Assembly: GCF_020921035.1 (NCBI RefSeq)
Contig: NC_063156.1
Coordinates: forward strand, 5,208,001 to 5,272,000
Length of the DNA stretch: 64,000 bases
From: Rhodamnia argentea
Lineage: Eukaryota; Streptophyta; Magnoliopsida; Myrtales; Myrtaceae
Direction of reading: 5' to 3'
The position numbers were made by a program, and so were the translations under genes. Shown piece after piece: positions 12,356 through 59,151 of this stretch. The notes under the pieces were generated by a model. That model was not told the origin of the DNA. It made no database searches and was given only the letters and a program-made list of their open reading frames with translations. Position 1 is the first letter of the stretch. Every line of letters begins with the position of its first letter.

Positions 12356-13474
12356 GATGCATTTGGTGCAGTTCTCTATAATAAGTCATATGGTATGTTT
12401 GCAAGGGCGGCTCCTTTTCTCTGTCCTCTAAGGATCAGATATTTCGAGGCTTTGGTTTTCTGGATGTTCAATAATTTCTTGCTCTCATTGCTAAAATGAT
12501 TCCTGCTCCTTGTATGGACTGACAGTGATCGTGGGTTTACGATTATTCGTTGCTGCTTTGTTTAACGACTGGAGGGTTGAACAAGACCCAAATCATATAT
12601 ATCTGTGTTGCTTCAACTTCGCGGCTCAATCCCAGAATTTGGTACTTATGTACGTTGTGCAAGTGATCAATTTTGTTGAAGAGAAGTGCGTCTGTTTGAC
12701 TATTAGCTTTGCTTTACGTTCTGCTGAAAAAGCAACTTTTTGTTCACGGGGAAACAAAGCGTAAGTTGTACGGTTTTCCCCGAGTAACTTGGGCAGAGCT
12801 ACATACATCCCCGGTTCTCGTTCTCGAAACAGAGTCCACTGAAATCACAACAAATGGGATTGGGCTCTTCTCCTTTATAGCTCCGTTTGCTATCTTGTTC
12901 CCTTTCTGCAATAAATTGGAGTTCATCAGTGTGTAACCCGAATGTCTGGAGGCATTTACATCTTGGGTTTCTCATTAGTGACCGGTTAGAGCTTCCAGAA
13001 AACAGAGCTCGCAATAGAAAGTCGGGAACAAATTTTGCTTGCATGTCGAGATTTAACGTAAGACTCCGATGCAAATGCTGCGGTTTTTTTGCCTTGTAAT
13101 TTATTATTATTTTTATTTCGCTTTGTCTTTTTTTCCCATGCCAGAGGCGGTGGCCTGCTGACAATAAAATCCGAGAACAAATAATTGAACAAAGGAAGAA
13201 GAAAAACTAAGAATCAGAGGATTAAAGTCCAACGACTAGATTCCAAACACATCTCCATCTCTCATTGTCTACGATTTTGTCACGCTAGTGCAAAATTTTT
13301 GATGGCAAGCACCAAAGACACAGAGGTCACCCCAGGCATGGATGGATTCTTCCTCCAAGCGAATCCTTTCCACTAATATAGTGAGCTCTCATTGGAAACC
13401 TGTTGTCATCTCCTCAAAATCCCTCATTTCTCACACCCTCCATCGAAAATTGATCTTTTCTCGGAATCTCGGAC
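12356..13474 (+). promoter_or_regulatory. LRR gene 3' end and UNC93-like promoter
   Basis: Non-coding 1.1 kb that should contain the LRR 3' UTR and the promoter/5' leader of the UNC93-like gene. Most of it, about 12640-13300, has a diverged second copy at 17873-19115 plus 20255-20290. Conserved landmarks are the AAGTGATCAATTT segment near 12660 and the ATGCTGCGGTTTTT segment near 13075. Confidence 0.6.
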
Positions 13475-14997
13475 ATGGGTTTCCCGGACAATCTTGATCA
13501 GGAATCGGCCACGCTGCCGAACAAATCCCTCTTCAGGTACAACTCCCCCCTGGTCCAAGTCAGCCTCATCGGTCTGGTCTGCTTCTGCTGCCCTGGCATG
13601 TACGGCGCCCTTGTCGGCATGGGTGGCGGCGGCCAGGTGGACCCCACCGCGGTGAACAACGCCAACACTGCCCTCTACACCACCTTCGCCGTCTTCGGCA
13701 TCCTGGGTGGCGGAATCTATAATGTCTTAGGCCCTCGCTTGACTCTGGCCTCTGGTTGTAGCACTTATGCTCTCTATGCAGGCTCTTTCTTGTACTACAA
13801 CCATTACCACCACCAGACCTTTGTCATCATTGCCGGCGCGATACTTGGCATCGGTGCTGGATTCTTGTGGGCCGGCGAAGGCGCCATCATGACCTCGTAC
13901 CCACCGCACGACCGAAAGGGCATTTACATCTCCCTGTTCTGGAGTATTTTCAGTATGGGGGGCGTCATTGGTGGGTTGATCCCGTTTGTCTTGAATTACA
14001 ACAGAAGTGAGGCTGGTTCCGTGAACGATGCAACCTATATCGGATTCATGTGTTTCATGGCTGTTGGAGCACTGCTTTCCCTTGCTATCTTGCCGCCAAG
14101 CAAGGTGATTCGTGACGATGGGACTAATTGCACTAAGGTGGAGTACTCGAGCGTTTCGACTGAGGCGACCGAGATTCTCAAGCTGTTCTTCAACTGGAAG
14201 ATGCTCTTGATTGCCCCGGCCGCCTGGGCTGGCAACTTCTTTTACAGCTACCAGTTTACTAATGTGAACGGGGCCTTGTTCAATTTGAGGACTAGAGGGC
14301 TGAACGGTGTGTTCTACTGGGTGGCCCAGATACTGGGGTCGATCGGGATCGGGTATGTGTTGGATTTCAGCCTTTCCAGCCGGAAGATGAGGGGTTACGT
14401 CGGGATTGCGATTGTCGCTTTGCTTGGGACTGCTGTTTGGGGGGGTGGCCTTGCTAATCAGCTGAAGTACTCTCGCCGCAACCTGCCCGAGAAATTGGAC
14501 TTCAAGGACTCCGGTGCCGACTACGCCGGTCCGTTTGTGTTGTATCTCAGCTATGGATTGCTGGACGCAATGTTCCAGACCTTGGTCTATTGGTTCATTG
14601 GATGTTTAGCTGATGATTCTGAAACTCTTAGCAGGTAGTGTCTGGAGTTTCTAAACTACGAGCAAGAAATTCTATTCTGGCATGTAGGCCTAGGAAATTT
14701 GGATTCTTTTTTATTAACACTGATGATTATAGGTCTAAAACTGAAACTGTTATCTGGTTTTCTATGTCCTGCAGGTACACCGGGTTCTACAAAGGAGTGC
14801 AGAGCGCAGGAGCGGCTGTCTCTTGGCAAATCGACACGCGCAAAGTCCCGTTCCTCTCGGAGCTTATCGTCAGCTGGTCGCTCATGACGGTGGGCTATCC
14901 ATTGTTACTGGTTCTCGTTAAGTTGGCCGTGAAGGACGATGAGGATGGTGAAGAGGGAGCTGAAAAGCAAGTCGTTGCTTCGTCTTTTGCTCATTAG
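13475..14997 (+). CDS. UNC93-like major facilitator protein (2 exons, 460 aa)
   Basis: Exons 13475-14634 and 14775-14997. The junction splits an Arg codon (AG|G), and intron 1 runs from GTAGTG to CTGCAG. The product is 460 aa, as in Arabidopsis UNC93-like protein 1 (At1g18000, about 459 aa). The sequence is strongly hydrophobic with about 11-12 membrane segments. It opens with SPLVQVSLIGLVCFCCPGMY and shows the family loop MTSYPPHDRKGIYISLFW between segments, plus a charged C-terminal tail (KDDEDGEEGAEK). It is presumably a membrane transporter or a channel regulator, and the substrate is unknown. The start is the first ATG of the frame and fits family length. Third-codon positions are GC-rich compared with the flanks. 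No break seen. Confidence 0.94.
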
Positions 14998-24370: not shown

Positions 24371-26498
24371 ATTGAAGGAAACCGTTGACGGAACTGAGTG
24401 CTCTGGCAGAGACCTCCCAGAAGTTAATAGAAGATAGTACTCACGGCAACTTGTGATGCTTTTAAAATTTGAGACATTTAAGTGGTTTTCAAAGTTCCTG
24501 TCAGAGAATATCAGCTTGGGAAAAGGCACACATGACTGGTTCATGTGCAATAAATTATGGCAAACTTCAAATGACCTGCTCAAGCCTATCCACTTCACTT
24601 TTCAGTTACCTTGAGAAGTGCTAATGCTGACTAAAATATATATGGTCTTAGTAGCTCCCCCATCTTCATGCACATTTTATGTGAGGATAAAGTGGCCTAC
24701 TCACGAGATGCGTTGCAAACAGCAAACAGGACCAGGTGAACATAATGTCACCAAATGCCCATAAGGGGGTTTCTCTTCTTTACGTCCCCTTACAACTCCA
24801 CAACATGTACTCATAATGCTTGAGGAACACTGCTACTTTTGAACACAGTTTGACTGCAATCTCAACTTCTCATCAGAGGATAAACAAAAATATATTTACG
24901 CTAAATATAGAAATTAGCCATATACATCTTGTAATTTCCCAAGCGACATATTAAAGATCACAACAGTAGGCATAAAGTGACTGGTTTGGGTGGACAACAT
25001 AAGGTAGTGACATGGTGCCCTGTGGGGATTTACTATATTCTCACAGACATGGTGGGATCAACAGAAGACTGAATTTTGTACACAACATTATTTATCGAAT
25101 GGTTAACGGGAAAAGACAGCGGAAAATATACCATAGAGACAAGAACTTGAACACACGGAGATATATCTCCAGAACAAGAGTCTCATTGATGACCCAGAGG
25201 TCCTGATTACGGACTCAATGCTATAAGAATTGGGGACCTAACAAATATATCAAACTGAAGCCAGATCGTATCTACAATTCTGGATATTCAGGTCACAAAT
25301 TGACCCGCCCGACAGTTCTCATGGCCCCAAAAAACCCATCTGATGACATGGACTAAATGCAGTAACTATAGTCAATGGAGCACCTGAATTAAGGAACCGG
25401 CAAGAGAAAAAACTATAATAGATCAAAATGAGTTCAATTATGCATATTTTACCTAATAATTCACATCAACCATATCACATGTATTTTTATCATATTCCAT
25501 CAGTTGACATTGAACTTGTCTGGGGCTAGAAATGAATGTAGTAGTTCACAAAGAAATTCTCGCTTAACGCGTATTCTGTCTTTCCACTTCCACTGTATCT
25601 ATCGACCATCGACTTCATTAAAACACACCCACAACCATTCCCACAGTTACACATACTAGTTAATACTGGCATGTTACCAAAAGGCAGTCGCAGAGCAGAC
25701 CATATTAGTATAAGACAGTTCTTTATCTTCCTTTTTCTTTCGGTTGGACTGCAATTCCATAAGGGAGCTTTATACATAAGCCTTGACCTAAAGCGTCTAC
25801 AACACCCATCAAACGTTATGCCACAGAACACAATCACTGTCAGTCCAACCCGCCTAACAAGTCATCCATCCTGAAACCTTGAATTCCCATATCAATCATA
25901 GCAAAAATCAGGTAGCTCAGAGTTCCCTTTTGTTACTTCTCCAAGAAGGAAGGATTCTTAGCCCAAGCATCTAATGATGGTGAGAGTCCATGCGCGTGCC
26001 TACTTAGCCAACACCAAAGAACAAGAATATGATGGAACACGAATAAACCGTAGAGTCAATGGTAACAGATGATTCTCACGACAACAATATCAAACCGATG
26101 GTCCCCAACCTAAACACAGAGTATGGAAATTGCTAGATTATGGACAGAGATCAATCTATCCACTGATTGAGATCAATCTGTCCTTTGCAACTCCATGGAA
26201 AGGGAGACACAGGGATTCGTTAAGCCTACCTAATCAACAAGGCGATAAGTGAGAAATTTGCAACTCTCCCAAGAGACATAAAATTCAAAAAAGAAACAGA
26301 GAGACAGAGAATTGAAAGAGAAGAGTAGAGTAAAACTACGAGAAAAACCAAGAAAATGGAAAATTCCTACCTCTACTCAAGATCAAGAATCACAGAAAAA
26401 GCCAGCAAAAGTGCCAATTGCCAACCAAAGCCAAACAGAATCAAACGAAAAGAAGAACAAAAAGGAAAAAGCACGAAAGCAACACCAAAAACACTAAC
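24371..26498 (-). other. Region downstream of the stress-protein exon, intron or 3' end
   Basis: The main exon of the universal stress protein gene ends in a splice donor at 26498, so its last small coding exon and 3' UTR should lie here or further left. No exon can be fixed. A minus-strand CCAG acceptor near 24406 would add about 30 residues before a stop at 24326, but I have no family evidence for those residues. Otherwise AT-rich sequence with nothing recognised. Confidence 0.4.
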
Positions 26499-27213
26499 CT
26501 TTATGCTCGTCGGAAGCATCGGCATCCTCCAGATCCTCCTCCTCCGGCACCGGATGCAACTCCAGCTCCCCGTCCTCTCCTCCCTCCTCCGCCACCCCCA
26601 TCCTGCCACCTTCCTCCTCCGGAAACCGAACCACCACCACCGGACATATGCAGTGATGAACGCAGTAATCGCTCACACTCCCCAACCTCCCCTTGCCCGC
26701 CCTCCTCGCCGCGCCGAACCCTCGGCTGCCCATTATCATCGCGCTCAGCCTCAACCTCTCCACCTCCAGGCACAGCCTCTCCTTCATGTCGTGATCCTTC
26801 ACTATGTGGATTTTGAATGGGATGCCCGCCTCCACGAGCGGCTGCGCGAGGTTGTCCAACTTGGCCGCCGTGAGGCTGTCAAAGTCGGACTCCAGCTTCT
26901 CCTCCTCCTCCCCGGAGAGGTGATCGGCGGAGGGGGAGCTCCCGGCGCCCCAGTCGGCGCCGTAGAGGACGGAGGTCGGCCTCACGTGGAGGAGGACGAC
27001 GGCGTCGCCCGGGCGGAGGTAGTCCCGCACGGCCCAACGCACGGCGTAGGCGCTCTCGTCGCTCAGGTCGACGGCGATGGCGATCTTGCGGCTGGCGCCG
27101 GCGGTCGGGGTGGCGACGAGTGGGACGCGCGGGGTCCCCCGTTGCGTGCGGATCGACGGCGGGGGAGGGTCGGGGAGGTCCGGTTCCGGGTGCGCTTGTT
27201 GCGGGTTCGTCAT
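26499..27213 (-). CDS. Universal stress protein, PHOS34/PHOS32-like (main exon)
   Basis: Encodes 238 residues plus one base. The start is MTNPQQAHPEPDLPDPPPP, chosen because the Pro-rich lead and TPTAGASRKIAIAVDLS fit Arabidopsis PHOS34 (AT4G27320). The UspA fold follows: DESAYAVRWAV, GDAVVLLHVRPTSVLYGADW, HIVKDHDMKERLCLEVERL, then the glycine-rich nucleotide-binding type loop MGSRGFG...KGRLGSVSDY and HHCICPVVVVRFP. The tail is acidic (EEEDLEDADASDEHK). The exon ends AAAG|GTTAGTG, a good donor. If the intron is retained the frame stops two codons later (Gly, stop), so the protein is essentially complete either way. In Arabidopsis such proteins are phosphorylated after elicitor treatment. The coding DNA is very GC-rich compared with its surroundings. 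Confidence 0.88.
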
Positions 27214-28347
27214 GTGAAAATTCCGGCTTCGTTCGGTTGACCGATGAAAGAAGTCGTGCCTTCTTGCCCCTCGGTCGGCGCTGCTTATCATGCGTCGAAG
27301 GGATTCGGGCTCGTATTTATTTAACAAATTCAATGAATTTTTGTCATTTTCTTGTTTTCTTTTTTTCTTTTTTGGTCGAATGTCATTTTCTTGTTAAGAG
27401 GCGAATATGTTTATTACGAGGAATATATTTAAACTTCAATCGTTGATGATTATAATTTATAGACACCAAACACCACAATATAATATATATATATATTTAA
27501 TTGTTTATTTCGAGATGTAATTTATTTTTTTTCACTCTGTCAAACAATCCGACATGAAGATTGATTACTAAACAAGTCATGTTTTGTGGTTGAATATACG
27601 ACATTATTATTATTATTGGAATTTCATTTCGAAACTTTATTGCCTTTTTATCTTCTATGTAAAAAGAGAACACTCGAGATCTTAAGCCTCAAAAAGTAAT
27701 TTGTATTTTGAAATCGATTCGGCGTGGAAGGATGCTTCGAAATAACTAAGACATACTGATTTTTTTTTTTCTTGTGATCAAAGGATTCTACTACAAGAGT
27801 ACGCATGTGGTTTCGAGTATTACAATAGCGACACGGTAAAACCATTCAACTTTGATATTCTATAGTTGATATTTCAATTTTGAGATTCCCGTCACTTTAA
27901 ATTTGCCACCGTATGGATTGCTTGTGCATTAATTCACACACCGTCTATGTGTACAAGATAAACCGTATGAAAAATTGACTACAACCTTATTTTTATCTAA
28001 TGGGCTAAACGTAAATCAAATTAAAAAAGAAAAAGAGAATGGAACGAACGGTTTAGGTGGTGGGGTTTAGTCGCGATCGAGTCCGTAACCCCCTAATTTT
28101 GAGGGCGACTTGCGAGTTACTGCGAAGACGTTGACCCGCCAGGAAGCCCCCAAGCCCGTGCAGCACAAGTTCTGGGCCTCTTCTAATCCATGGAGAGATG
28201 AAAACTAATCCCTCGAATCTATACATACTGATCGCGGAATTAAAATGCCTAGAAAGTCTTGAATCACCGATTGAAAGCGTATATAACAATTATGAACATA
28301 CCTTATTGTTCCACAGATTAAATGTTCTCGATGTAGAGAGAGTTAGG
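27214..28347. other. Intergenic region upstream of the stress-protein gene
   Basis: Should hold the promoter of the stress-protein gene at its left edge. AT-rich, with (AT) and (ATT) runs at 27480-27498 and 27603-27617. No gene recognised. Confidence 0.5.
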
Positions 28348-32676: not shown

Positions 32677-34338
32677 TTACTGGGTTTTTCTTCTCTTGAG
32701 AGCTCGCTGTGACCTGACGGTGGAGGCTGCGGCATTGGTCACCTCGCTGTCCGAGCACGAGAAATGGTGGTCCAGCACATTAATGGGGGTGTCTGAGCTT
32801 GAGTGAACATCGAGCGCTGACTCGCATCCCTCCATCGCTACGTCTTGTTGCATAGCGTTGTAACAATGCAGCAAGTTATCCTGCGATTAGAAGCAAAAGC
32901 AGAGCAAAGCCAATGAGACCCATCTTCCAAAACCGGACACAGATTAAAAAAAAAAAGCAAAAGCAAGTACTTGTGAGTTGATTCTCAAAAAGTAACATTG
33001 ACCCATTCTTTAAACCGAAAGAAAATTATAAAAGATCTTGCTTTTGGAAGAGTAACCCATCTTGGACTACGTAGTAAAGCAACACATTGTACTTCCTGAC
33101 AGGACAAGATGACAAGAGTCGCTCATTAACTAAAATATTAAACGATGTTTAAGTTGGACTGGACTACTAACTTACCTTATTTACGTATGAACAACTGGAG
33201 ATGTCGCTCTTGAAGCTCGCAAATTGCAAGGGAAGCAGCTCGTGAGATGCGCAGAGAAGCGCTGACGCTGCTGTTATTGATGGCTTGAACTCCAGAAGCT
33301 TGATATCTGTCCCCCCCAAAAAAAAGAACATTTTTCAGGCTCTGTCTTATAAGTTTTGCTTCAACAGAGAAATAAATGCTAAAATGGGTCTCTCTCTGCA
33401 GTACCATTCTGAGCTTTGAGGATGATCTCGCTCGCTCGAGCTTTGAAAGCCTGCCTCAATGGCGGGTCTCGGAGTTTGAACAGAGAGACGAAGAAGGAGA
33501 TGAAACAGAAGGGAGTGATTGAGCGCGTTCGCCATTGGAGAGCCCCCAACACGAGTAACTCCATACTCTGTATTGAATGTGCGTCGAATATGAAACCTCC
33601 TCCTCCATCACTCTGCATTCAAACCCAAGAAATATCACAATTGGTCCCGAATTCAAGTGAAACAAGCATCATTTATATTCTCTCTTTCCTCCTGTTTTTT
33701 TAGTTCGAATTCTTCCACGTTCACCTGAACATCAGCGAGAGAGATCTCTGTTTTCAGCATTTTCGCGGCCAAAGCTACGCAAGATACGGCAAGAAGCCTC
33801 GAGACCCATGGCTTCGGTTTCTGCCAAAAGAACAAAGAAACCCAAAATTCAGGAGGTGACAGAACACGGTCAAACCCAAAAAGCAACGCAGAACGCGAAA
33901 ACCGCGAAAAGAAAAAAATATGGTCTCTGTTCAACATCGTGAGAGAAGAAGGAAAAAATGAGAAAAGCAAATGCGCGTTTTCATTAACCTGCAATTTATG
34001 GGAGGACAGGAACCGATCGACATAATTGATCGCGAGGTACGATAGCGTCGGGTCCAAGTTTCCAGATAACTGCAAAAACACCCCAGGACGAAGAAGAATG
34101 TAAGGAAACTCGCCCAGAGAGAGAGAGAGAGAGAGATTGCGATTTCGCGATCGAAAACCTGCGAGATAGAAGAGATGATGCCCCGTCGAACAGAGAGATC
34201 GTCGGAGCAGCCGACCGATCGAAGACCGGCGAGGTATTTCTCGGACGGCATGTGGTCCAACTCGACGAGAAAGAGGAAGGTCTTGTCAGGGAAGCCATCG
34301 TCGAAGTTGGTGAGCGGGTTTTCAAGATCGAACTCCAT
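32677..34338 (-). CDS. CYCD6;1: D-type cyclin, D6 class (6 exons, 299 aa)
   Basis: Exons on the minus strand: 34338-34159, 34069-33989, 33820-33725, 33612-33405, 33306-33176, 32880-32677. All introns have GT-AG borders, the phases join, and the product is 299 aa (Arabidopsis CYCD6;1 about 302). It begins MEFDLENPLTNF, like the Arabidopsis protein, and lacks an LxCxE Rb-binding motif, which I recall as a D6 trait. The cyclin box covers about residues 25-165, with LSYLAINYVDRFLSSHKL, KPWVSRLLAVSCVALAAKM and MELLVLGALQWRTRSITPF. The C-terminal cyclin fold (LLEFKPSITAASALLCAS) is followed by a polar tail ending ALKRRKTQ. In Arabidopsis this cyclin acts with CDKs in formative root divisions under SHORT-ROOT/SCARECROW. 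A (GA)n run lies in intron 1 near 34116-34136. Confidence 0.95.
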
Positions 34339-43905: not shown

Positions 43906-46900
43906 ATGGGTACTGTCGATGAAGATAGATCTCCAACAAACAAGGTATGTGACCATAACAATTCCTAGCGCTTTTCAAGTAACCTTGAAATGCAGTGTCC
44001 TTTCAAGGGAACATAAATCTCTGGAATTGGCAAAACTGTCTAGCTTTCCGTTTGCGATGGAGATGAGCTGTGTAAACGTCTGACAAGCTTCTCATGCTTT
44101 CTTCTGCGATTCACCAGGGGAAGTATGCAGCGATGGTTGTGTGTTGGCTTCTTGGGAACGGCTGCCTGTTCTCATGGAATAGCATGCTAACAATAGAAGA
44201 TTATTATGTCTACTTGTTCCCGGTATTTGCTCCTATCCAATACTGCAATCTTTCTAATATGTTCCATTCTCTGGACATGTTCGTATTTATAGTACTGGCA
44301 TGGCTTCTCTTCAAGATTTCCATGATTAGCAAGGCATTTGATGGATACAGACTCCCTTTTGAAAAACTTGGTTTAAATCGTCACGTGATTAATCTTTCGA
44401 CCAGATTTTGTTGCAATCATGATGAACTCGGCAAAATATTTAGGTTTGGCTGTAAGAGCATTTTCTCTGTCAAAATCCTGCAACTTGGCGAACTTTGTTG
44501 GCTTGTTCTCCTTGGTAGAATTTCTCCACGATCTCTATGGTGTCCTGCCTTTTAGAAAAGTTGTGCTCTGGACATCGCGGTCAAACTTGTAGGTCATCAA
44601 AATTGCTTTCTACTGGTTCTTGCCAACTTTGGTTCTGTTTATGGGCTGTATTAAACTGTTTAGAAGGGTTGATGCTAGTACTTTTATTATGCAGTTTCTT
44701 TTGCAAACTTTGGAGTATATGTATCTTGTTTTAGAAAGACTGGGTCTCTTAGAAAGCTCCTAACTGAAAGTTGTTTTGGATCTGTTTAGTAATGACCCTG
44801 TCAATTAAGAGGTGTATGGTGATTTAGATTATGAAACTTTGTTTTTCATTTCATTTGCAGAAATACCACCCCTCAAGAGTTCTAACTCTTGTCTACCAAC
44901 CTTTCGCACTTGGAACACTTGCGGTGTTAGCATACAATGAGGCAAAGATCAACACTAGACAGCGGAATCTATTTGGATATCTTCTTTTCTTCATTAGTAC
45001 TCTTCTGGTTCTAGTTGTGAGTTATCTATTTGTAGTTTTTCTTCTGGCACATAGTGGTTCATAGCTTGGTTGAACACTTGAATCTAATTCCAAGTTTTCT
45101 TTCTCCGTATTCCATGATATAGTTGGATTTAGCTACATCTGGGAAAGGAGGGATTGGAACTTTTATTGGAATATGCGCCATCAGCGGTGCTTTTGGAGTT
45201 GCAGATGCTCATGTGCAAGGTGGAATGGTCGGAGATCTTTCTTTCATGCGACCTGAATTTATTCAGGTAGGTATTCCTGGAGGGTGCTGTGCTACTTAAT
45301 AAGTTGATTTGATTCATTCAGCATAACACAAATTTCTTTTTCCCAAATTTTTTTAGTCTTTCCTTTGTGGTTTGGCTGCATCTGGTGCCTTAACTTCAGC
45401 ATTGAGGTTAATTACAAAAGCTGCGTTTGAGAAGTTCCAAGGAAGGTCTACGCAAGGGAGCTAGTAAGTGCAAGTTTTTCATAGGAGATAGAAAGAGTGA
45501 AATCTCATTTTCTGATGTTGGTGAATGAATCATAGTTATGGCTCTTAAATTTTGATCTGCAAGTCAAGTTGTTCATTGTTTCAAGATTTCGAATTAGGAC
45601 GTTGTCAACATAACTTCCTGTTCGCTCTGCTCTTTAATTTACCAGGTCTTAGATAACTCCAAAAGTGTTTCCTGAAGCCTTATATCGATACTCTTAATTG
45701 GTACAACATCAATGGACATGTGTACATGATGTCTACCTGATTATTACACCTATCCTTTCAAGAGGTTATGGATGATCTGGTGGTAAACTGAAAGTAAATA
45801 CTAAGTGGACTCTTCTTTCTTCTTTAACGTGACATTTGAAAGTATTTTGCGCTTGTCTCCAGTTACGCACTGCAACTTTATTTTATTAATCTAATGTGCT
45901 CCTAAACATGATGGACATTAATATAACTACTTTTCGGGTGCAGTTATGTTCTTTGCAATATCTTCATTTTTTGAGCTTCTCTGTGTTCTGCTTTATGCAT
46001 TCATCTTTCCAAGACTACCAATTGTCAAATACTACCGCTCAAAGGCAGCTTCCGAGGGATCTAAAACAGTGTCAGCGGACCTTGCTGCTGGTGGTGTTCA
46101 AGCATTACCTTGCCAAGAAGTATGTCTGCTCTACTACCTGAATCAAAACACCCCCACCAAGAAAACAAAAAAAGAATAGAGAAGAACCTCCTTCAATTAA
46201 TGTTGAGAGTATGTCGTAAATGCAGGCTGAGGAGGATCCAAAGCAGCTTGAGCGTTTCAGCAACAAAGAGTTGCTAATCCAAAACTTTGATTATGCTGTC
46301 GATATGTTTTTGATCTATGCGTTGACGTTGTCTATTTTCCCGGGATTCTTATCTGAGGATACTGGATCCCACCGTCTGGGTGCATGGTAAGTTTCTGTTT
46401 GGTTGTACTCCAGTAGTTTATGCATGTAGATACATCTAATCCATCTTTTCATTTGCATATGTCATTGTTCATCAGATTGTTACATTTTTTTAGTGGACTC
46501 TCTATCTACTTCTCTATTCGTCTTACATTATCCAAGCCAATGTGTTATGCACCAGGTATGCACTTGTATTGATAGCAATGTACAACGTGTGGGATCTCAT
46601 AGGGAGATACATTCCACTCGTGAAATTTCTTAAGATGGAGTCAAGAAAAGGGCTGATGACGGCAATCCTCTCCCGTTTCCTTTTAGTTCCTGCGTTTTAC
46701 TTCACAGCCAAATACGGGGACCAAGGCTGGATGATAATGCTCACATCATTCTTGGGGTTATCAAACGGTTACCTCACTGTTTGTGTCCTTACTTCAGCAC
46801 CAAAAGGTTATAAGGTTCGTAATCAAAATCCATGCTCTTGCATAAGAAAAATCAGTCTCTGCAGCATTAGTGGACTAACCTATATGCGATTTCAATCTGT

Positions 46901-47010
46901 AGGGTCCGGAGCAAAATGCTTTGGGAAACCTGCTCGTGTTGTTTCTTTTAGGGGGCATATTTGCAGGAGTGACACTCGATTGGTTGTGGCTCATAGGCAA
47001 AGGCTGGTAA
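43906..47010 (+). CDS. ENT: Equilibrative nucleoside transporter, ENT3/6/7 group (9 exons, frameshift at exon 5)
   Basis: Exons 43906-43944, 44118-44222, 44861-45016, 45123-45266, 45357-45463, 45944-46119, 46226-46386, 46556-46814, 46903-47010. The product would be 417 aa, like Arabidopsis ENT3 (about 418), with 11 membrane segments. Family marks include WNSMLTIEDYY, PSRVLTLVYQPFALGT, GGMVGDLSFMRPEFIQSFLCG, LPIVKYYRSKAASEGSKT, AKYGDQGWMIMLTSFLGLSNG and GPEQNALGNLLVLFLLGGIF. All junctions keep frame except exon 5/6. Exon 5 (107 bp) ends CAAGGGAGCTA|GTAAGT, one base too long; family proteins read Q/K-G-A-I there. So there is a one-base insertion in the GGG run (45456-45458) or a sequence error. 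With canonical splicing translation shifts frame and stops early in exon 6. It moves nucleosides across membranes if functional. Confidence 0.85.
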
Positions 47011-47374
47011 AATTGCTCTTGGTGAACTGCCTGCAGGAGCTGTATTCTTCCTTATGGCGAGTATTCATTTGACAAAGTACAATGTAGCTAGCCATCAAAT
47101 CAGTTCTCAAGCATTCATTGGAACATTGCTTTTTGAATATACATCTCATAATTTATTAGGATACTATGTGCGTTCGCAATGAACGACAATCCATGCATTG
47201 TTTTAGTACCAAAAATAGTTGTCTTGGTGACTTGTGCAGTTCTCTTTGAGCTAAACACCATCCTCCCAAAATTGCATTTCTTGTTTGGGACTATGGTGCA
47301 TATCGTGTCCATCCTCGTGTCCTTTAGGCGGCCTTCATCCGAGTTCTATACCACCTTGTAAATTTTTTTAGTTT
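47011..47374 (+). other. 3' flank of the nucleoside transporter
   Basis: Probable 3' UTR and flank. About 47011-47150 is conserved in both downstream ENT pseudogenes (52720-52850 and 57493-57650), which shows the duplicated unit ran past the stop codon. Confidence 0.55.
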
Positions 47375-50300
47375 TTACGTTGTGATCCCGTGATGGCCTT
47401 GGATAATCAGTCGATTACCACCAAGGAAGACATAGTATCCCTACATTGACCAGCGATCCACGGGGTAACCGGCTCGATTTGCATTAGAATATGCTATCAC
47501 CTCTAAAGACTCGGGATTAGAATAACCAGCTATATGAAGATGACCCCGATTATAAAACACAAGTCCTTGACCCAGAGCTTCTTTCAAATACCAAACAATT
47601 TGTAGGACGACTTGCTAGTGAGTAGTACGGGGAGAGCTCATGAATTGACTTACCACGCTAACAACAAACGAAATATCCGGATGAGTAATAGTGAGATAAT
47701 TTAACTTGCCTACTAATAGGCGATAATTCTTTGGATCATGAAGAAGCTCTCTATGTTTATTATCAATCCTCACCCTAGGGTCTATAGGTGTGTCACCAGG
47801 CCTAGCATCATGCGAGCCTAGCTCCTTAAGAATATCAAAAGTATACTTTCGTCGGGAGAGCGATACGGCCATCGGCATAGGTCACCTCTATGCCGTGAAA
47901 ATATCAAAGACAACCCAAGTTTTTAGTGTTAAACTCCTTTTGAAGAAACTTCTTGAGCCGTTGTACTTTCAATAACAATAATATCATCAACATAGATAAC
48001 AAGAATAACACACCTTTTTGAAAAGGACATACTAAACACGGAGTGATCCACTTTGCATCAATGCATGCCAAAAGTAATATTCGCATACTAAAGCGGCTAA
48101 ACCAAGTTAAAGAAGATTGTTTAAGTCCATAAAGATCCTTTTCACAGCCGGCAGACCTTTTTCCCCTATGCAACAAACTTGGGTGGTTGCTCCATAAAGA
48201 CTTCTTTGTAAAGATCACCATGAAAGAATGCATTTTTTATATCAAGCTAATGAAAAGTCCACTGAAATTAGGTAGCCAAAGAGATAAGGACATGGATGTA
48301 AGGAATTTTGGCCACCGGTGAAAAAGTCTCATCATACTCGATACCATAAGTCCGAGTATAGCCCTTTGCAACAAGACATGCCTTTAAATGCTCAAGCGAA
48401 CCATCGGGATGGTGTTTAATGACAAAGACCCAGTGACAACCCACTAACTATTTATTAGAAGGCAAATGAACTAGCTCCAAGTTTTATTATGATGCAATAC
48501 GGCCATCTCCTCCTTCATAGCACGAGCCCAACCAAGATAAGCCAAAGCCTCCTACTCACTACATGGCACGGACACGGATGCAAGGGACGACACAAATGCA
48601 AACTTCATGAGGGGTTAAATTATGATAAGACACAAAATGAGAAAGAGGATACCAAAGCCGAGTACGATGAGCAATAGGAGAATCGATAGAAGTTGGTGGA
48701 AGAGGATGAGAAATGCTTGATCCTTAAAGAGAGTGGCATCAATAGAAATATTCTCCCGACGATGAGTAGGAGTATAATAGACATAGCCCTTTTGAGTATG
48801 GGAGTAAGCGACAAATACACATTTTTCATCTTGAGGCGATAATGCAAAATAGACACAACAAAAAATACAAGGATGAACGGCCCACAAAGGATGATTGGGA
48901 TAAAAAAGAGCATAAGGGACAACTCCCTTCAACACCGAGAACAGAAGACGAATAGTAAAATGACATGCTGTAAGAAGAGCATAACTCCAGAATAACTTAG
49001 GCATATGTGTGTGGAGTAGTATACAATGAGCAACATCCAACAAATAACGGTTTTTCGTTCAACAACTTCATTTTGTTGCTGAGCATGAGCGCAAGAAGTT
49101 TGATGTAAAATACCATGAGATTCAAGAAATGGAATAAAAGTAAAAGAAGAAAAATATTTGTGAGCCTTGTCTATAAGCAAGCACTTAACAAGATAGCCGT
49201 ATAGAGTATGAACTTCATTATAAAAATGGTGGAAAGAAGGAAACACTTCGGTATGATCTTTTATTAAATATAACCAAATTGTATGAGTACAATCATCAAT
49301 AAAGATAACAAAATAACGGAAACCAAATGAAGACTATTGACTAGGACCCCAAACATCGGAGTGGACTAACTCGAATGGCTGGAACGTTTGACTCAAAACC
49401 CCGAGGGGGAAAAGACACACGATGGTGCGTACCCAACCGACGCGTTTCACAATCAAACTGAAGACTAGAACTAGACATGAAAGGAAAATATTGAGTACTT
49501 CCGTTGAGGGGTGACCGAGGTGACAATGTAACCAATAACAGTCATCCACATCCTTCTTTTGAACGGTAGCAGCAACAACAATAATCTCAAGGTTCTGGGA
49601 GGAACAATCCACTAGCCTCACGCCTACTACCTATTCGGCGTCTAGGCTTCCAATCCTTAAAAACACACGAAGGGGTATAAAAGATAATATCACAGTCAAG
49701 GTCACGGGTTATAGACCTTACGGATAATAAATTAATAGGGAAGCGTGGAATATGATAAACAAAATATAAGGACATGGAGAACTCAATGTTATACAACATG
49801 TACCGGTCATTTTATTTTGAGAACCATATATTAAGATGATTGAAGTGGACAGAACGGACGAGGTAGGGGTGAGAAGAAGTGGATCACCAGTCATGTGATG
49901 AGTGGCACCCGAATTAAAAACCCAAGGATGAGGAGTAGCTATAGTGGACAATTGACGAGTAGAATCATTATATTGTTTCAAAATAGCAATAGGACCAGAA
50001 GGAAAACTAAACTAGCATGCTCTAATCAACTCATCATATTCTACACGAGTCAAATTCATCGTACTCTATCTAGAAGGAGGTTTAGGTGAAGGAGACCAAG
50101 ACTTAGTATCAATAGAAGCATGAAAACCCCGCAGCTTGGGATGGAGGTCATAGAAATAATCAATAGTGTGTCTAGGAAGTTGGCAATGAGTACAAAAGCA
50201 ACCCCCACAAGCTCCTCTAGAACCACTATTACTACCACCACGAGAGGCACCTTAGTCGCGACTATGGTTAAAACTATCAAAGTTCCAATTTCCACATCCA

Positions 50301-51540
50301 TTACCATGACCATGAGCTCCTTGACCACCACAAGCCACCATAGCACTATTATCTAATAGAGCTGAAGTTTTGGCATTAGGAGTGTAACGACCAGCTCGAG
50401 AACACACTTCTATGGAAGATAGAGAGCCTAGAGAAGTAATTTCTTATCGAAGAACACCGTGATGCGGACCAAGACCTCGGAGGAAGAGGACTACCACCAT
50501 ATCTGCTTCTCGTTGTTGTATTTGAGTAATTGTGGTAGCCGATGAAAAATAAGATAGCTAATATAAAGACGAAAAATAAGTATAATACTCTGCTAACCCA
50601 AGATCACTAATTTTAGCTTCAAATAAAGCCTCCTACATATCACAAACTCAACTCATATTTTTTTATCGGGAATAAGGTACAACACATTTTGTTTATACGT
50701 CATGGGCTATTGCATTATCCATGCAAAGATGGTGAATAGATTAAGCCATACTCTCCCATAAAAGAGTACACAACGTAGCATCAATGACCTTCCATACTTC
50801 TTAATTAGTTAGATCCGTAGGTGGTTCTCCTTCAAGCCATCTAGACCGGCGATTAGCATAAATAAAAGAAGAAAAAGCCACCGACCAAGCAAAATAGTTA
50901 GTACCATCCAACTTGACCAATGTAGTGTGTATGCCTGTCATGCCATAAGTACCTCTATGATAGGTACCAAAAAATCCCAAACTAGAAGTAGCATTAAAGG
51001 GAATCACCCTCGAAACAACAGATTGAAAATTTGTCTACTCAATAAACATAACCACAGATCAATAATAAAATACCATGAGCTACCACAACACCACTGGGAG
51101 CACTATATGGTGAGATTCAAAGAAACTTCTACTTTTCGGACTTACCGTAAGTCAATTACCCGGAATATAGTCGACTAGTTAGGAACTACAATACAAAAAA
51201 TACCACGAACATACAAAAATCTCACCCAAACCACCACAACTTGTGATCCAATTATCACATCACCACAAACAACTCAACACTAATCAACACATGCTTTTAA
51301 GAAACAAACTCAAGGGAATTGTATTAGAGACCGGAAAAATCGCTTGGAGGTTGTGGACGCCGCTACAAGAGTAGCAGCGATTGAAGGCATCACTATTGGA
51401 GACATAATACAAAATCACGACCGAGGCTATCGCAAAGCAAGGGAAGAAACCCTAGCGGTGGTGATTAGTCATCGTAGCAAGGGAAGGAACCGAACAATGG
51501 TAATGTGGTCGTACGTCTTCTCTCACGTGGGAAGGGTGTG

Positions 51541-51551
51541 CTATGATACCA
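51541..51551 (-). promoter_or_regulatory. Primer binding site of the copia element
   Basis: On the minus strand TGGTATCATAG lies two bases inside the LTR end. It differs by one base from the common plant copia site TGGTATCAGAG, complementary to initiator methionine tRNA. Confidence 0.75.
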
Positions 51552-51657
51552 TGTTGTTGGTAAAAGAGAGACTTATTATTAATGGGATTAAAAGAAGTAT
51601 TTATAGGTTTAAGATTAACCCTTATATAATTACATAAACAACCCCAATTTGCTAACA
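51552..51657 (-). repeat. 5' LTR of the copia element (106 bp)
   Basis: On the minus strand it starts TGTTAGCAAATTGG and ends ACCAACAACA, so it has TG...CA ends and is followed directly by the primer site. At 106 bp it is short for copia. No partner LTR was seen at the other end. Confidence 0.7.
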
Positions 51658-52268
51658 ATATAGAATAATAAGTAATAAACCCAACACCTTCTATTCTTTC
51701 AAGAACTCAAAACAGAAATGAGGAAAACATCATTACAATATTCAAATAGACTTATTTAGACTTTGACTGAAATTAAAACTAGAATATAAACAATGTCGCG
51801 TTTGTATTGATAACTATCTTAGGAATCAACGAATCAATACCTTCTTATTGCTTTGAATAGATTTGGGTATGCATGGAATTTATACTTCTATCGTTGTGCG
51901 CAATCACTATTGCGATAGCTACCCACAGCCGGCGAGGGCTTCTCGACCCTCGCTTGGTGTCGACAAGGGTCGGGCCGCCCTTGCTAGTCTTAGTAGAAAA
52001 AAAGAAATAAAAAAGAAATGAAAAATTATATATTTTTAAAATAAATAAAAATAAAAAAGTAGAAGAAAAAAAAAAAAGTAAAGAAAGGGTAGAGGCTTTT
52101 CAAATGGGTTGTTTTAAGTGGGTTATAAAAGGGTTTACAATGGACCATTTTATAATCAACCTATTTGGCCCTATTTATTTTGTAGATATGTTATGTTCAC
52201 ATGCTAAGTTTGTTATGACCCATTTAAATACTTGTGGATTACTAAATGAGTATTGGACCCATTTTGGT
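51658..52268. other. AT-rich spacer
   Basis: No gene. An A-rich run (51990-52090) follows a GC-rich patch containing the words GGCGAGGGC and GACAAGGGTCG, similar in style to patches inside the TIR elements at 19.4-20.0 kb. Confidence 0.4.
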
Positions 52269-52850
52269 AGGTCTATGCACTAGTTATATCACAATGTACA
52301 AGGTATGGAACCTAATAGGGAGATGCCTTCCCCTCATAAAATTTCTTAAGATGGAGTCAAGGAACGGGCTCACGATGGTGATCCTCTCTTGATTCTTTTT
52401 TATTCCCGTGTTTTACGCCACGGCCAAATACGGGGATCAAGGCTTGATGATAAAGCTCACATCATTCCTGGGATTATCCAACGGTGTTTCTCCTCACTTT
52501 GGCACCAAATGGCTATAAGGTTCGTAATTGAACAACCTTAATGCTATTATATCGAAAGATTCGGCCTTTGCAGTATTAGTGGACTAACCTATATGCGATT
52601 TCGATGTGTAGGGTTCGAAGCAAAATGCTTTGAGAAACCTGCTCGTGTTGTTTCTTTTAGGGTGCATATTTGTAGGAGTGACGTTAGATTGGTTATGACT
52701 CATAGGCAAAGGTTGGTGAAATTGATCTTGGTGAACCGCCTACGGGAGTTGTATTCTGCATTATGGCACGTATTCATCTAACAAAGTACAATGTGATTAG
52801 CCATCGGATCATTTCTTGAGGGTTCATTCAAACATCGCTTATTGATTATA
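52269..52850 (+). pseudogene. ENT pseudogene 1 (exons 8-9 and 3' flank only)
   Basis: Matches 46556-47150 of the transporter gene, intron included. Exon 8 similarity covers 52269-52520 (CTTAAGATGGAGTCAAG, AAATACGGGGATCAAGG). Exon 9 covers about 52612-52719. Defects include CTCTCTTGATTC, which turns a conserved Arg codon into a stop, and TGG to TGA in the last exon (GATTGGTTATGA). Exons 1-7 are absent. Confidence 0.88.
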
Positions 52851-52949
52851 ATTCGATCTTGTAATTTGCACGGAATTTGCACGTGGTTATCAAGTACTCT
52901 CCACTGGAAATGGAAAAAATGTAAATTGAATCGCTACATTTTCCGTTGT

Positions 52950-53069
52950 CGAGAATATCCTGGACCGCCAAAAATCAAGGATAATTACAATCCTGCTACT
53001 TGGATGCTGGAAATCACAAGTCCTTCGCTAGAATCTCAACTTGGTATAGACCACGGCGTCATTTATAAG
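52950..53069 (+). pseudogene. Isolated exon of a PDR-type (ABCG) transporter
   Basis: Encodes [20 protein letters not shown] followed by [15 protein letters not shown], the well-known segment after the second nucleotide-binding domain of pleiotropic drug resistance transporters. It ends AAG|GTGTATG, a plausible donor. No other PDR exon is seen nearby, so it is a stray fragment, carried here by duplication or by a transposon. Confidence 0.8.
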
Positions 53070-53431
53070 GTGTATGATTAGTGCAAGGAAGCATACATTA
53101 GACTACTGTTCAAAGCACACGTTAAGCACGTTTTAAGCACTCATTAAGCGCACAATTTGCTAAATTGAGTGATTCTGTCTCTCATGTGATGCTAACTTGG
53201 AGTGTTGATCGAGAAAATGACAACATGTGCTTGTAAATGGTGCTTCTTGTGCTTGCCATGGAGAATAATGATGTTTGTTGATTTTGTCAATCTCTAGAGG
53301 ACGAACCAAGAATTAGCGAGTGATCTAAGTTTTGTCGACAAGTGGCACAAAAGAAATATGTTTCTCTGCGCACTTCCCACAAAATAAGTGGAAGCAGTTC
53401 AAAACATGCTTCTGGAAACAACATTTAGAGG

Positions 53432-54345
53432 GTGCATGACAACATTTTGTTCCGGAAATAGATTTTTGGCTAGAAATAGATTTTTCTATTTCTATATCTA
53501 GATGATTTTTTGAGCAAAAAAATACGTTTGATAACGACATAAAATTTCTGATCTTAGAACAGAAGTTTGTTTGATAACAATTGAAAATTTCTATTTCTAA
53601 AAATTATTATTTACTACTTAAAAATTTATTATTTATTTTTTACTCCGGCGGAGGCGGCTGAATTATGGCAGGGTGGCCGGCGGAGGTCGGCGGTGGTCGG
53701 TGGCGGGCGGCGATGGTTGCGGCAACAAGCCCAGGCGGATAGGATGGTAGAGGTTGGTGGCGGGGTCGGCGGCGGCAAGTGGTGGTCGCCGGCAGCGGGC
53801 GATCGAGGACAATGGTTGGTAACGGCGGTGGTCGGCGGTGGGCCGGAGGTCGGGGCGGAGGTCGGTGGTGGTGGTTGGCATGGGAGACCGAGGGTAGTGG
53901 TTGGCGACGGCAAAGGTTGGCGGCGGTTGGCGCAGGTTAGTGGCGGCCAGCCATGGTTGAGGCGGTTGGAGGAGGTTAGCGGTGGGCGGTGGTTGGTGGT
54001 AAGCGGTGGTCGGCAGTGGTGAGGTCGGCGGTGGCTAGCGGTGGGTGGCGGTGGCCCACGGTGTGGTGGGGGGAAACGGGGGGTGGCGAGTGGTGGTTAG
54101 CGACGACGGGTACTTGAGAAAAAGTGAGGGTTATTACTTTTGATTTTTGTTTCTCCGAGAAGCTAAAAATTTTAATTTCTGATTTCCCTTCCAAATCTAT
54201 TTCTGGAACAAATTTTTGTTTCATAAATAAAAAAATAGAATTACGTTACCAAACAAGGTTATGTTCCAAATATGTTCTAGAAATAGGTTTGGAACATAAA
54301 TAAAAAAGTAAAATGGTTGCTATGCAACCCCCTTAACCTACTAGA
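53432..54345. mobile_element. TIR element with a G-rich core
   Basis: The left end GGGTGCATGACAACATTTTG and the inverted right end GGGTTGCATAGCAACCATTTT are similar. Both are followed by sequence with words such as GGAACA and GAAATAG. The core (53645-54115) is a strand-biased run of GGCGG, GGTGG and GGTTGG words. The minus-strand open frame over it is Pro-rich low complexity and not a real protein. Target duplication not certain. Confidence 0.5.
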
Positions 54346-55007
54346 GAAGCCCTACATACAATAGGGTGCACTTGCTTTTTATTACCGCGTCTTTCTTGTT
54401 ATGTATCGTTCTCCTTTGGCAGAAAGGAAAGGAAATGTAAGGTCTTGTTCATAAACCTAGTTAGTTTGGGAAAAATCTTTTGCAGCTTTTCCAAAATCGG
54501 GATTAAAAGCTTCTAAAACTTACCATCTAAGTATTGCTAAAATACCGAGTCTTTGTTTTGAAGAAATGATGAGTAGCATCTTCTCAACATACTTGGATCG
54601 ATGTTTATCTTTGTGCAATTCACGGAAATAGGCAATTGGCTACCGAATAAATTATTGTTTACGCGGCTAGAAAAAAGGATAAGTTTAGGGGTATTGCCTA
54701 AAATGCGGGCCCACAGCCCTCCATTAGGCGCGAGCTCTCTTAAACCCGATGTTAGTTATCGTTTTAACTTCTTAGTCTAAGGGAGCTTAGGAGTCGTCAC
54801 TAACATTTTGGAGTCACTAGAAACCAAACTAGACACGGACGTTGGTCTCGTTTTCTACACAGCCAGAGATTTTACTACTTGATCACACTAATTTGTCTAA
54901 TTAGAGTCTTTTCGGTACCTAAAACTCGAATTGATTGTTCATCTAAGTGATCGTGACATGTTTTTGTCGATTGTGAGCTCTAAAGCATGGTTAACGTGTG
55001 CTTTGAA
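54346..55007. other. Spacer before ENT pseudogene 2
   Basis: No gene recognised. Confidence 0.4.
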
Positions 55008-57650
55008 CAGTAGTTGGGTCACCGATGTTGATGCGAGGGTATTTTTCACGTAAGAGGCTCTTGCTCTATTGTTGTGAACAAATACCAAAATGGCCTGTCG
55101 ACGAAGATGGTGACTTCACCGATAGATCTCTCGGGCTCATGATTTCCATGTGAATGATCGTGTGCCTTCTTTATAAGGACCGATTTTGTTGGCTTGCTCT
55201 CCTTGGTAGAATATGTTCGTGATCTTTAAGGTAGCTCGCCAGAATTGCTCTCTGCTGGTTCTTACTAACTTGGGTTTTGTTGACGGGCTGTGTTAAGACT
55301 GCATAGAAGGGTTGATGCAAGTGTTGTTGGTTTGCTCTCTCCGAAGGGGGAGTGTTGGGTTTGTAAAGTGACGCGGTTCAAATGTGATATGATTGGTAGC
55401 ACCAATGTCAATAACACAAGTATCGGAATTAAATGAATTCGAAGATAAGCCAAGAACATTACCTGAGAGGTTGGCTTTCGGGATGTTTACCTCTTGTAAC
55501 AAGTGCATCAATTGCTTCTGTTGATCATTTGTGAACGGAGGAGGTGTCACATCGGAGTGGCTGGAATTATTGTGGCCGGGGGAGGTGATGGTGTCACGGG
55601 TGCTTTTGGTTGGGGGAAGCCATGAGTCGATACACACATCTCGTATATGTCCCGGATGCGGTGGGAATTTTTGGCTACAAAGGTGTTTGTGTTTAGCTAG
55701 GTTGCGGCGAGCAAGAGCGTAGAGCTAGGCGGTGCATGAGATGAGGAATTCATGTTGCCGCGGAGCATGGTTGCGTGGTGCTAAGCAAAGTACTAGTCGA
55801 TTGGACGGTGGGTGGTCCGATTGGATATGGCATGCGACTCATCTTGAAGAACTAGTGCATCGCACATGCACACTAGGAAGGATTCATTAGTAAATCGGCA
55901 CATTAGCGTACCTCGGATTGAGACCCATGAGAAATTGAAAAGCGATTCTCTTGTTGTGTGGTGATGGTGCAGCCAAACAAGAGCATTGCGGAAATGGATC
56001 TAAATTATTCAATTCAAGCAAGTTGTTGTAGTATTTGGTTACAACATCGTCACGTGGCAAGGGTACAAATCGTTTACTTAATATGAAAAATCCTAGGGCC
56101 ATTCGATAGCGACGCTGAGATGGCCCGACATCGACTTTGTGTAGAGAACCGTTGGCACCAAATCTAGATGGATGGATTAAGAATCGGGATGAATCATATT
56201 GTTCCGAATCCGGGACGCATAGGCCGGATCGGTTGGCTTTTATTTCTCCGACAAACCATCTTGTTTTGGCGGAAGGGCAATCTCCGGCTCGGGACCAATT
56301 GTTGTAATTCTGGTGAGGAGTATGCGACAAGATTGATCCAAGGTTGTGAATGATGCATAAAATAAGGGCTTCGTATTGTTGTGAAGACTTTGGAGTCTAT
56401 TTGCCATGGTGACTTGGGACTTTAGAAGGATCTAGAGGTTTCGTGGCTAGTGTTTTCCGAAAGAAATCTAGTGCTCTATCGAAGCCACTTGGCGTAGATG
56501 GGCATCAATGTCAACCTCTTTGTGGAGATAGCGCGAGAAGGCCAGAGAGAGAGGACATGGCGGCTGATGCCATGAAAGATTTTATGGAATTGTCTAAAAG
56601 TTTAGCATAGAGGAAGTGTTTTAATGGTTATATATTCCAACAAAAAATTTCGTTCTTTTCATTTCATTGGCAGAAATACCACCCCTCAAGAGTTCTAACT
56701 CTTGTCTACCAACCTTTTCGCACTTGGAACACTTGCGGTGTTAGCACACAATGAGGCAAAGATCAACACTAGACGGCGGAATCTGTTTGGATTTCTTGTT
56801 TTCTTCATTAGCACTCTTCTGGTTCTAATTGGGAGTCGTCTCTTTGTAGTTTTGCTTCTGGTGCATAGTGGTTCATAGCTTGGTCGAACACTCTGGATCT
56901 AACCCTTAGTTTTCTGTCTCTATATTATCTCGCCAAGAAGTATGTCTGCTCTCATATCTGGATTGCCCCCTGCCCCTCCGAAAAGAAAAAAGGAAAAGAA
57001 CAGACAGGAATTACCTCGAACTAATGTTGAGAGCTTGTCGTAAATGCAGGCGGAGGAAGACCTGAAGCAGCTCGTCTGTTTGAGCAACAAAGAGTTGCTA
57101 ATCCAGACTAATGATTATGCTCTCAATTTGTTTTTTGATCTCTGCATTATCTGCATGTAGATTCATCTAATTTATCTTTCCTATTGCATATGTCATTGTT
57201 CATCAGATTATTACATTTACTTAGTGGTCTCCCTATCTGCTTCTCTCTTCAGCTTTCATTATCCAACTAAAGATGGAGTCGAGAAAAAGGCTCATGACGG
57301 CGATCCTCTCTCGTTTCCTGTTGATTCCTTCATTTTACTTAGCGGCCCAACACGGGGACCAGGGCTGGATGATGATGCTCACATTCGTTGTTGGGGTTAT
57401 CAAGCGGTTATCTAACCGTATTGTCTCTTTTAGGGGGCATATTTGCAGGAGCGACGTTCGATTGGTCTTGGCTTATAGACAAAGGCTGGTGAAATTGATC
57501 TTGGTGAACAGCCTACATCTGCTACGTGCTGCATTGAGGCGAGCATCGACAGACGGTGCTCTTTTTTCACCTGAGAAAGTACAATGGGGTTGGCCATTGG
57601 ATCAGTTCTCGAGCATCATCCGAACATTGCTTCTTGATCACAAGTCTCAT
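55008..57650 (+). pseudogene. ENT pseudogene 2 (deleted, frameshifted, carrying an insertion)
   Basis: 55008-55185 matches the transporter's upstream region (43655-43830). 55186-55323 then matches intron 2 (from about 44490), so exons 1-2 are deleted. After a gag-bearing insertion (55324-56642), exon 3 returns at 56674 with an extra T (CAACCTTTTCGC) that shifts the frame. Exons 4-6 are missing. Exon 7 starts at 57050 and is cut short. Part of exon 8 (57271-57412) is fused to the middle of exon 9, ending at a TGA at 57490-57492. The 3' flank match runs to about 57650. It is clearly non-functional. Confidence 0.88.
55324..56642 (-). mobile_element. Copia-type gag/protease fragment inserted in ENT pseudogene 2
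   Basis: On the minus strand a gag-like frame (56330-55887, FQFLMGLNPRYANV) is followed by a broken zinc-knuckle-like part (GHIRDVCIDSW) and a protease-type motif (CVIDIGATNHIT, with Ser of the usual DSG replaced). The right edge reads TGTTGGAATATATAACC on the minus strand, LTR-like. Near the left edge the plus strand has GAAGGGGGAGTGTTGGG, which looks like a polypurine tract joined to an LTR start in the opposite direction, so the insert may be a mosaic. No integrase or reverse transcriptase present. Confidence 0.65.
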
Positions 57651-59151
57651 GTGTTATTTTGCATAGCATACGTGCATAAACAACGAAAACGATCGACGCC
57701 ACTGTTTTTAGTCCGAGAAAAAGTTGTCTTTGAGAATTGTACAGTTCTCTGTTGATTTTCTAAAGTCGCACGCTGTCAACTAGCCCAGGTGCGAGGTTGC
57801 TCGATCTTAGATGAGACTCGTCATCACCAGATCTGGCTTGTCGACGGTTACATCAAGGCTCGCCGGCGAGATCACACGATGAATATAAAATAAAGCTGTT
57901 GAGGTCAAAACTGGAATTTAAATAGTTTAGCGATGGCGAAGTTGGAAAAAGAAAATTCGTTTAGCATTTCAAAAATGCTCAAAAGCAAAGCTGAGTGGGA
58001 CTTGCATTGGACTAAGGGCTTTTGAAAATGCTAGTTTTGTCTCATAGCCCTTTGCATGTTCATTGCCAAACACCTCCGCGTTTTGCCAAAGGCCTTTGCC
58101 ACTCAAAAGCCTTCCGGCAAAACTGCCTCAAACGCAACCTTTCCATTGTAGAAACCGTAATGCAAATAGAAGCTGGAATACCGCAACTGAAGTGACACTC
58201 ATGTCAATACCATAAAGCTCATAGTTGCAATCAATACTAGGATTCATTCTCGTACTTATCGAATGTGCAAATATCATCATGACCTTTCTGGCCTCAATTT
58301 CGAGCTGAAAAAGGTTTTTTTTTTTTTTGTTCTTGTCATGGAATTATACGCGACCAACATGCTTGGCATCGGAGACGGTGGCCTCTTTCCAGTTTTCACT
58401 TTGTAATTTTCTGTTTAGTAAGGAATCAACCATTTGCATTCCTAGGCCTGAATCAACTCGTTTGGTGAACATTCCCAAGATTAAACAACCTTTAATATGG
58501 GGATGCAATTGGGCATAATTTGATGGAAGATTTCACAGATGCACAAGACCGAAATCAAACGGTATGAGATATGTATAAGTATATATCGCCGCACACGGAA
58601 AAAAAATATCCGGCATTATATTCGATGTCGACATTTGTGTTGCATGATGATATTGACGGAAAAACGACGTAAATGTAGTACAAGCAGCTCAACACTCAAC
58701 AAGCACGCAAAAATCACCCTGCTTGATAGAGCAAAACTTCGATTGATGGAGTGATCTTGTGATTTACCGTGTCGCTTCAACAGTATAGAAGTCGGAAGCC
58801 GCAAGGAGGCGAGCCTGTACAGAAAGCTTTTTTTGCATCACTCCATGGTCCTCGACCAACTGTTCTCCGGTCGCAACGACGTGCATTTTTGACCTAATTT
58901 CAGCGCCAATGATCATTGCATCAATTGTGGGAAAGAATGCAAAAAGGGCTCTTCCTCTTTTTCGTTTTTGGCCAAGTGAAAAGACCAGTCCTCGCACTAC
59001 ATCTCTTTGTCCTAAAAATTTACAGTGGGCCAAAAGAAAAATGAACAAGAAAGGCCTCAAAACGACACCCTGTTTGGCGCGTTTTGGTCCTCTTCCTTCA
59101 CGTTGACCCAACAGGGCCCACCTAGGGGGAAAAAGTCCAGCTCTGACCCCA
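57651..59151. other. Intergenic region left of the GPI-anchored protein gene
   Basis: No gene recognised. A poly(T) run lies at 58316-58329. The right edge should include the 3' UTR of the SPARK gene. Confidence 0.5.

Follow-up and report, generated by a model that had tools for sequence, protein, structure and literature searches.

The 64-kb window analysed here, the whole stretch C7:5208001-5272000 of a 346.66-Mb assembly in 74 contigs supplied without base-quality data, contains a nine-exon nucleoside transporter gene, copy A, which as the sequence stands is a broken member of the equilibrative nucleoside transporter (ENT) family. One net additional base towards the 3' end of exon 5 disrupts its reading frame. 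Judging from its lesions and substitutions, copy A is probably a young pseudogene that has become fixed, or else a null allele that is still segregating, and would have been constrained until recently. Three other readings are weighed against this one below, and the weights given to all four are a matter of judgement. Breaks of this kind are known and ordinary.

Structure and family of copy A

Copy A is an ENT3-type gene on the forward strand at 43906-47010. All eight of its introns have GT-AG boundaries, and its exons (Table 1) sum to 1255 coding bases, one base too many for a whole number of codons. The frame is broken between exons 5 and 6, while the exons flanking the lesion on both sides keep the frame and contain no stops. 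The intron boundaries and stop-free exons bear out the original prediction of a nine-exon gene whose other junctions join in frame. Besides the lesion, no further stop, frameshift or splice-site loss was found in the 1255 coding bases, and none of the 25 tandem repeat rows in the window overlaps the gene. When copy A is spliced as read, the first stop falls in exon 6 at codon 194, which lies 145 nt upstream of the exon 6/7 junction, and there is no uninterrupted frame of the length found in its open paralogues (411-413 aa).

Table 1. Positions of the copy A exons, the lesion and the two decayed ENT copies, numbered within the window
Feature	Position	Strand	Length (bp)	Remarks
Exon 1, start codon	43906..43944	+	39	donor GT
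Exon 2	44118..44222	+	105	equal in L009, L010, L042
Exon 3	44861..45016	+	156	equal in L009, L010, L042
Exon 4	45123..45266	+	144	equal in L009, L010, L042
Exon 5	45357..45463	+	107	106 in three paralogues
Lesion	45435..45444	+		ten bases, nine in L009, L010, L042; net +1, no single base assignable
Conserved 3' end of exon 5	45445..45463	+		ancestral G-L-R-K-G-A, now out of frame; includes GGG
Intron 5	45464..45943	+		donor GTAAGT, acceptor GCAG
Exon 6	45944..46119	+	176	holds premature stop (codon 194)
Exon 7	46226..46386	+	161	
Exon 8	46556..46814	+	259	
Exon 9, original stop codon	46903..47010	+	108	
Decayed copy B	52274-52805	+		part of exon 8, exon 9, 3' flank
Decayed copy C	55185-57517	+		intron 2 pieces, exons 3, 7 and 8, part of exon 9

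Exons 6-9 matched PF01733 with 83.6 bits (cut-off 29.8) over profile positions 64-307 of 309, and exons 1-5 reached 19.4 bits, under the same cut-off, at profile positions 8-59 only. With TIGR00939, exons 1-5 gave E=1e-10 at 41 bits, under that model's threshold of 297.5. The open paralogue L009, with 139.2, likewise falls under the TIGR00939 cut-off, and with 105.4 it exceeds that of PF01733. A PDB search with the C-terminal piece of copy A matched seven distinct sequences named as nucleoside transporters, three of them shown as alignments; the best aligned stretches begin at residue 60 of this piece or later and do not reach the exon 5/6 junction. The N-terminal piece gave no PDB match up to E=1. 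The labels ENT3-type, for copy A and the C9 copies, and ENT1-like, for two further genes (L011 and L012) set apart as their own group by lower identity, are what we take to be the appropriate subfamily names. Among the titles listed in literature searches, none concerned this gene.

Position of the lesion

A DNA search of the assembly with 126 bases around exon 5 as the query returned four matches, namely the window itself and three paralogous copies on C9 (L009, L010 and L042). Exon 5 is 106 bp in all three, in keeping with the original prediction that this length, rather than the 107 bp of copy A, would hold the frame. Alignment to these paralogues placed a single gap, inside the ten bases listed as the lesion in Table 1. 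Across the 19 bases that follow and the donor GT (GGTCTACGCAAGGGAGCTA followed by GT), one base differs from the three paralogues, and GGTCTNCGCAAGGGAGCTA followed by GT is conserved between copy A and all three. The GGG is therefore ancestral.

The surplus base had originally been assigned to this GGG (45456-45458) of CAAGGGAGCTA. This assignment was rejected, since all three paralogues have the same sequence there and the gap lies at 45435-45444, which the span first proposed for the break (45440-45960) only clips. Because the lesion lies outside the GGG, the accompanying proposal to distinguish GG from GGG in sequencing reads was aimed at the wrong bases. Restoring the frame at the GGG had also given the product Q-G-A-I-M-F-F, supposedly as in relatives, but the relatives read R-K-G-A-M-L-F or R-K-G-A-I-L-F, and Q-G-A-I-M-F-F is an accident of shifting the base. 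There is a lesson of method here: without the paralogues, the lesion had been put at least 12 bases away from its position.

In the old frame, exon 5 ends in G-L-R-K-G-A, of which GLR is also present in the two ENT1-like genes. In all five paralogues (L009, L010, L042, L012 and L011), GLR follows after a constant five residues past a short motif, which is KAAF in the ENT3-type genes and KAAY or KASL in the two ENT1-like genes. Origin of the lesion by tandem duplication of four bases (AAGGAAGG at 45439-45446) was considered and rejected, as it needs an ancestor one codon shorter than these five. Given the constant spacing, a simple net gain of one base is therefore preferred. Copies B and C are unable to polarise the lesion because exon 5 is absent in both.

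Age of the break and competing explanations

The two decayed copies both lie downstream of copy A and carry several lesions each, which agrees with the two older, decayed ENT copies originally reported in this locus. Copy B has stops in exons 8 and 9 as well as frame-breaking deletions of 1 nt and 11 nt in exon 8. Copy C has a +1 in exon 3 and a +1 in each of exons 7 and 8, both of which are cut short, while exons 4-5 are gone along with the greater part of exon 6. Between copies A and B lies a broken retroelement in antisense orientation (approximately 47400-52200, -), which we read as copia-type; its matches to rve (E=0.0017) and Pol_BBD (E=0.001) are both below the Pfam cut-offs, and no direct repeats qualifying as paired long terminal repeats were found in 46800-58000.

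Comparison of copy A with L009 gave a dN of 0.18 and an omega of ∼0.06 (bootstrap 0.053-0.114, undefined replicates dropped), and comparison with L010 gave an omega of ∼0.11; dS is saturated in both cases, so these values show constraint and not its exact strength. Changes since the split of copies A, B and C were polarised with L009 at 531 sites, from exons 3, 7, 8 and 9 only. The A branch carries 12 synonymous and 8 nonsynonymous changes (20 changes), whereas neutral change, with transitions given an assumed weight of 4, would be 72% nonsynonymous (p=0.003). The corresponding counts for the B branch (8:19) and the C branch (11:24) both fit neutral change, and A differs from B and C combined (Fisher test, p=0.03). 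With counts this small, the effective omega of the A branch has a 95% interval of 0.09-0.69. Copy A looks to have lost constraint much later than B and C, if it has lost it at all.

A single lesion combined with a constrained history points to one of three things, namely recent loss, a null allele that still segregates, or an error in the assembly; a very young mutation and the latter two all predict the same sequence. The original prediction of a young pseudogene or allele is supported as regards a recent break in an otherwise complete gene beside two older wrecks, with one lesion in 1255 bases and a pattern of constraint seen in copy A only. In the 346.7-Mb assembly, the exon 5 search recovered the window as the single identical copy and no near-identical second, so there is no alternative haplotype for comparison.

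In the scenario that we favour, an ENT3-type gene, which by analogy with Arabidopsis ENT3 would have imported nucleosides at the plasma membrane, remained under purifying selection until recently and then acquired a net surplus base late in exon 5. Normal splicing would yield an mRNA whose stop lies far enough before the next junction for nonsense-mediated decay to be expected under the 50-nt rule. Any protein made would keep ∼174 ENT residues followed by ∼19 others, with more than the C-terminal half missing. The loss of copy A could be tolerated because the two ENT3-type paralogues L009 and L010 on C9 are open throughout.

A base-level assembly error would leave the gene intact in the plant, with the surplus base in the consensus only. 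One lesion in an otherwise perfect, constrained gene is as much the signature of such an error as of a young mutation, and the assembly came without base-quality values. However, the lesion contains no run of more than two bases, which would be an atypical slippage context for long-read errors, and real losses are frequent in this family here, as copies B, C and L042 carry several lesions each. An error of this kind is unlikely in our view, albeit well short of negligible.

Copy A might also still yield a transporter through unusual splicing. Enumeration of GT or GC donors at 45380-45940 with acceptors at 45470-46100 identified 25 pairs that restore an open frame, including a GC at 45460 with the usual acceptor. 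Ten AG sites were checked at 45290-45455: besides the usual acceptor, two that lie inside exon 5 likewise restore an open frame. Joint skipping of exons 5 and 6 preserves the frame as well (323 aa). The least damaging rescue by length uses the GC donor (416 aa), but this site fits the donor consensus at 4/9 positions versus 7/9 for the GT donor four bases downstream, whose position is the same in the three paralogues. A GT donor 79 bases upstream scores 6/9, but its product has 391 aa. The products of the GC donor, of this upstream donor and of exon skipping all lose or scramble the conserved GLRKGA, and the acceptors inside exon 5 remove the residues preceding it. No rescue form looks competitive by splice-site consensus, and rescue by splicing is improbable. 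A minor isoform, spliced from the GC at 45460 or in some other way that keeps the frame, would be an ENT with a rewritten GLRKGA and a changed or regulatory role beside the two standard ENT3-type genes, which we consider extremely unlikely.

An old net +1 in a long-dead copy A might be suspected from its position next to two long-dead copies and a broken retroelement, but is very improbable, given the absence of a second stop, frameshift or lost splice site in the coding bases, the departure of the A branch from neutral change, and a rough calculation in which the lesion rate of copy B (at least 3 per ∼350 exonic bases) predicts ∼10 lesions in copy A (P(0 or 1) ∼0.0005).

ENT genes elsewhere and other features of the window

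Protein searches of the assembly, which score the best candidates only and so provide lower bounds on copy number, identified at least several further ENT3-type copies on C9. L009 (413 aa) and L010 (411 aa) are open genes with GT-AG introns, as predicted with hand-set exon edges. L042 is broken: the donor after exon 3 has changed from GT to AC, exon 6 is shorter by 14 bp and exon 8 is interrupted. L039, L040 and L041 yielded nothing of exons 5 to 7 beyond 24 traceable bases of exon 5 in L039. These loci form a spread-out ENT3-type family at C9:22.905-23.65 Mb (L009, L010 and L039-L042), with two open members and one broken one besides these three copies, and further ENT fragments with stops are present at C9:23.565 Mb. 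The more distant ENT1-like group comprises L012 (C7:28.69 Mb) and L011 (C4:24.90 Mb). Copy A had been described as the only near-complete ENT copy here, but the genome also has L009 and L010 as open ENT3-type genes on another contig. The ENT family in this genome shows a pattern of recurrent duplication and decay. If real, the young pseudogene or null allele proposed for copy A would be a transporter gene caught at the moment of loss, in a family that is repeatedly duplicating and dying here.

Parallels exist in Arabidopsis, where the cytidine deaminase-like genes reportedly include many dead copies and one working gene; these are comparable as a pseudogene-rich family of nucleoside metabolism but belong to a different gene family from ENT. 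Copy A resembles Arabidopsis ENT3, ENT4 and ENT6 (TC 2.A.57.1) by its PF01733 match in the C-terminal half and its sub-cut-off TIGR00939 match. In PMC4158802, Arabidopsis ENT6, ENT3 and ENT4 carry the consecutive locus numbers At4g05110, At4g05120 and At4g05130, which suggests a tandem ENT group there too. The same paper reports yeast assays of these three transporters, whereas copy A is frame-broken and is likened to them by family profiles. It also describes most plant ENTs as proton symporters, and PMC10652772 calls ENT3 plasma-membrane-localized. Arabidopsis fur1, a glycine-to-arginine change in ENT3, and T-DNA mutants of ENT3 are 5-fluorouridine resistant according to PMC4158802. The likeness to fur1 is the loss of one ENT3-type gene; copy A differs in that it has a frame break, is known from an assembled genome and is accompanied by open paralogues. 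If its break is real, copy A would provide a naturally occurring null for a nucleoside importer.

No tRNA genes were found in the 64-kb window. Leucine-rich-repeat stop-to-stop frames of 550 aa (9933-11585) and 207 aa (11732-12355) begin a stretch at 9933-14638 (+), in which they are followed by a UNC-93/MFS-like frame of 394 aa (13454-14638, +). On the reverse strand, a stop-to-stop frame of 299 aa at 26494-27393 (-) features a universal stress protein domain, and a 210 aa frame at 33653-34285 (-) has a partial match to the cyclin N-terminal domain.
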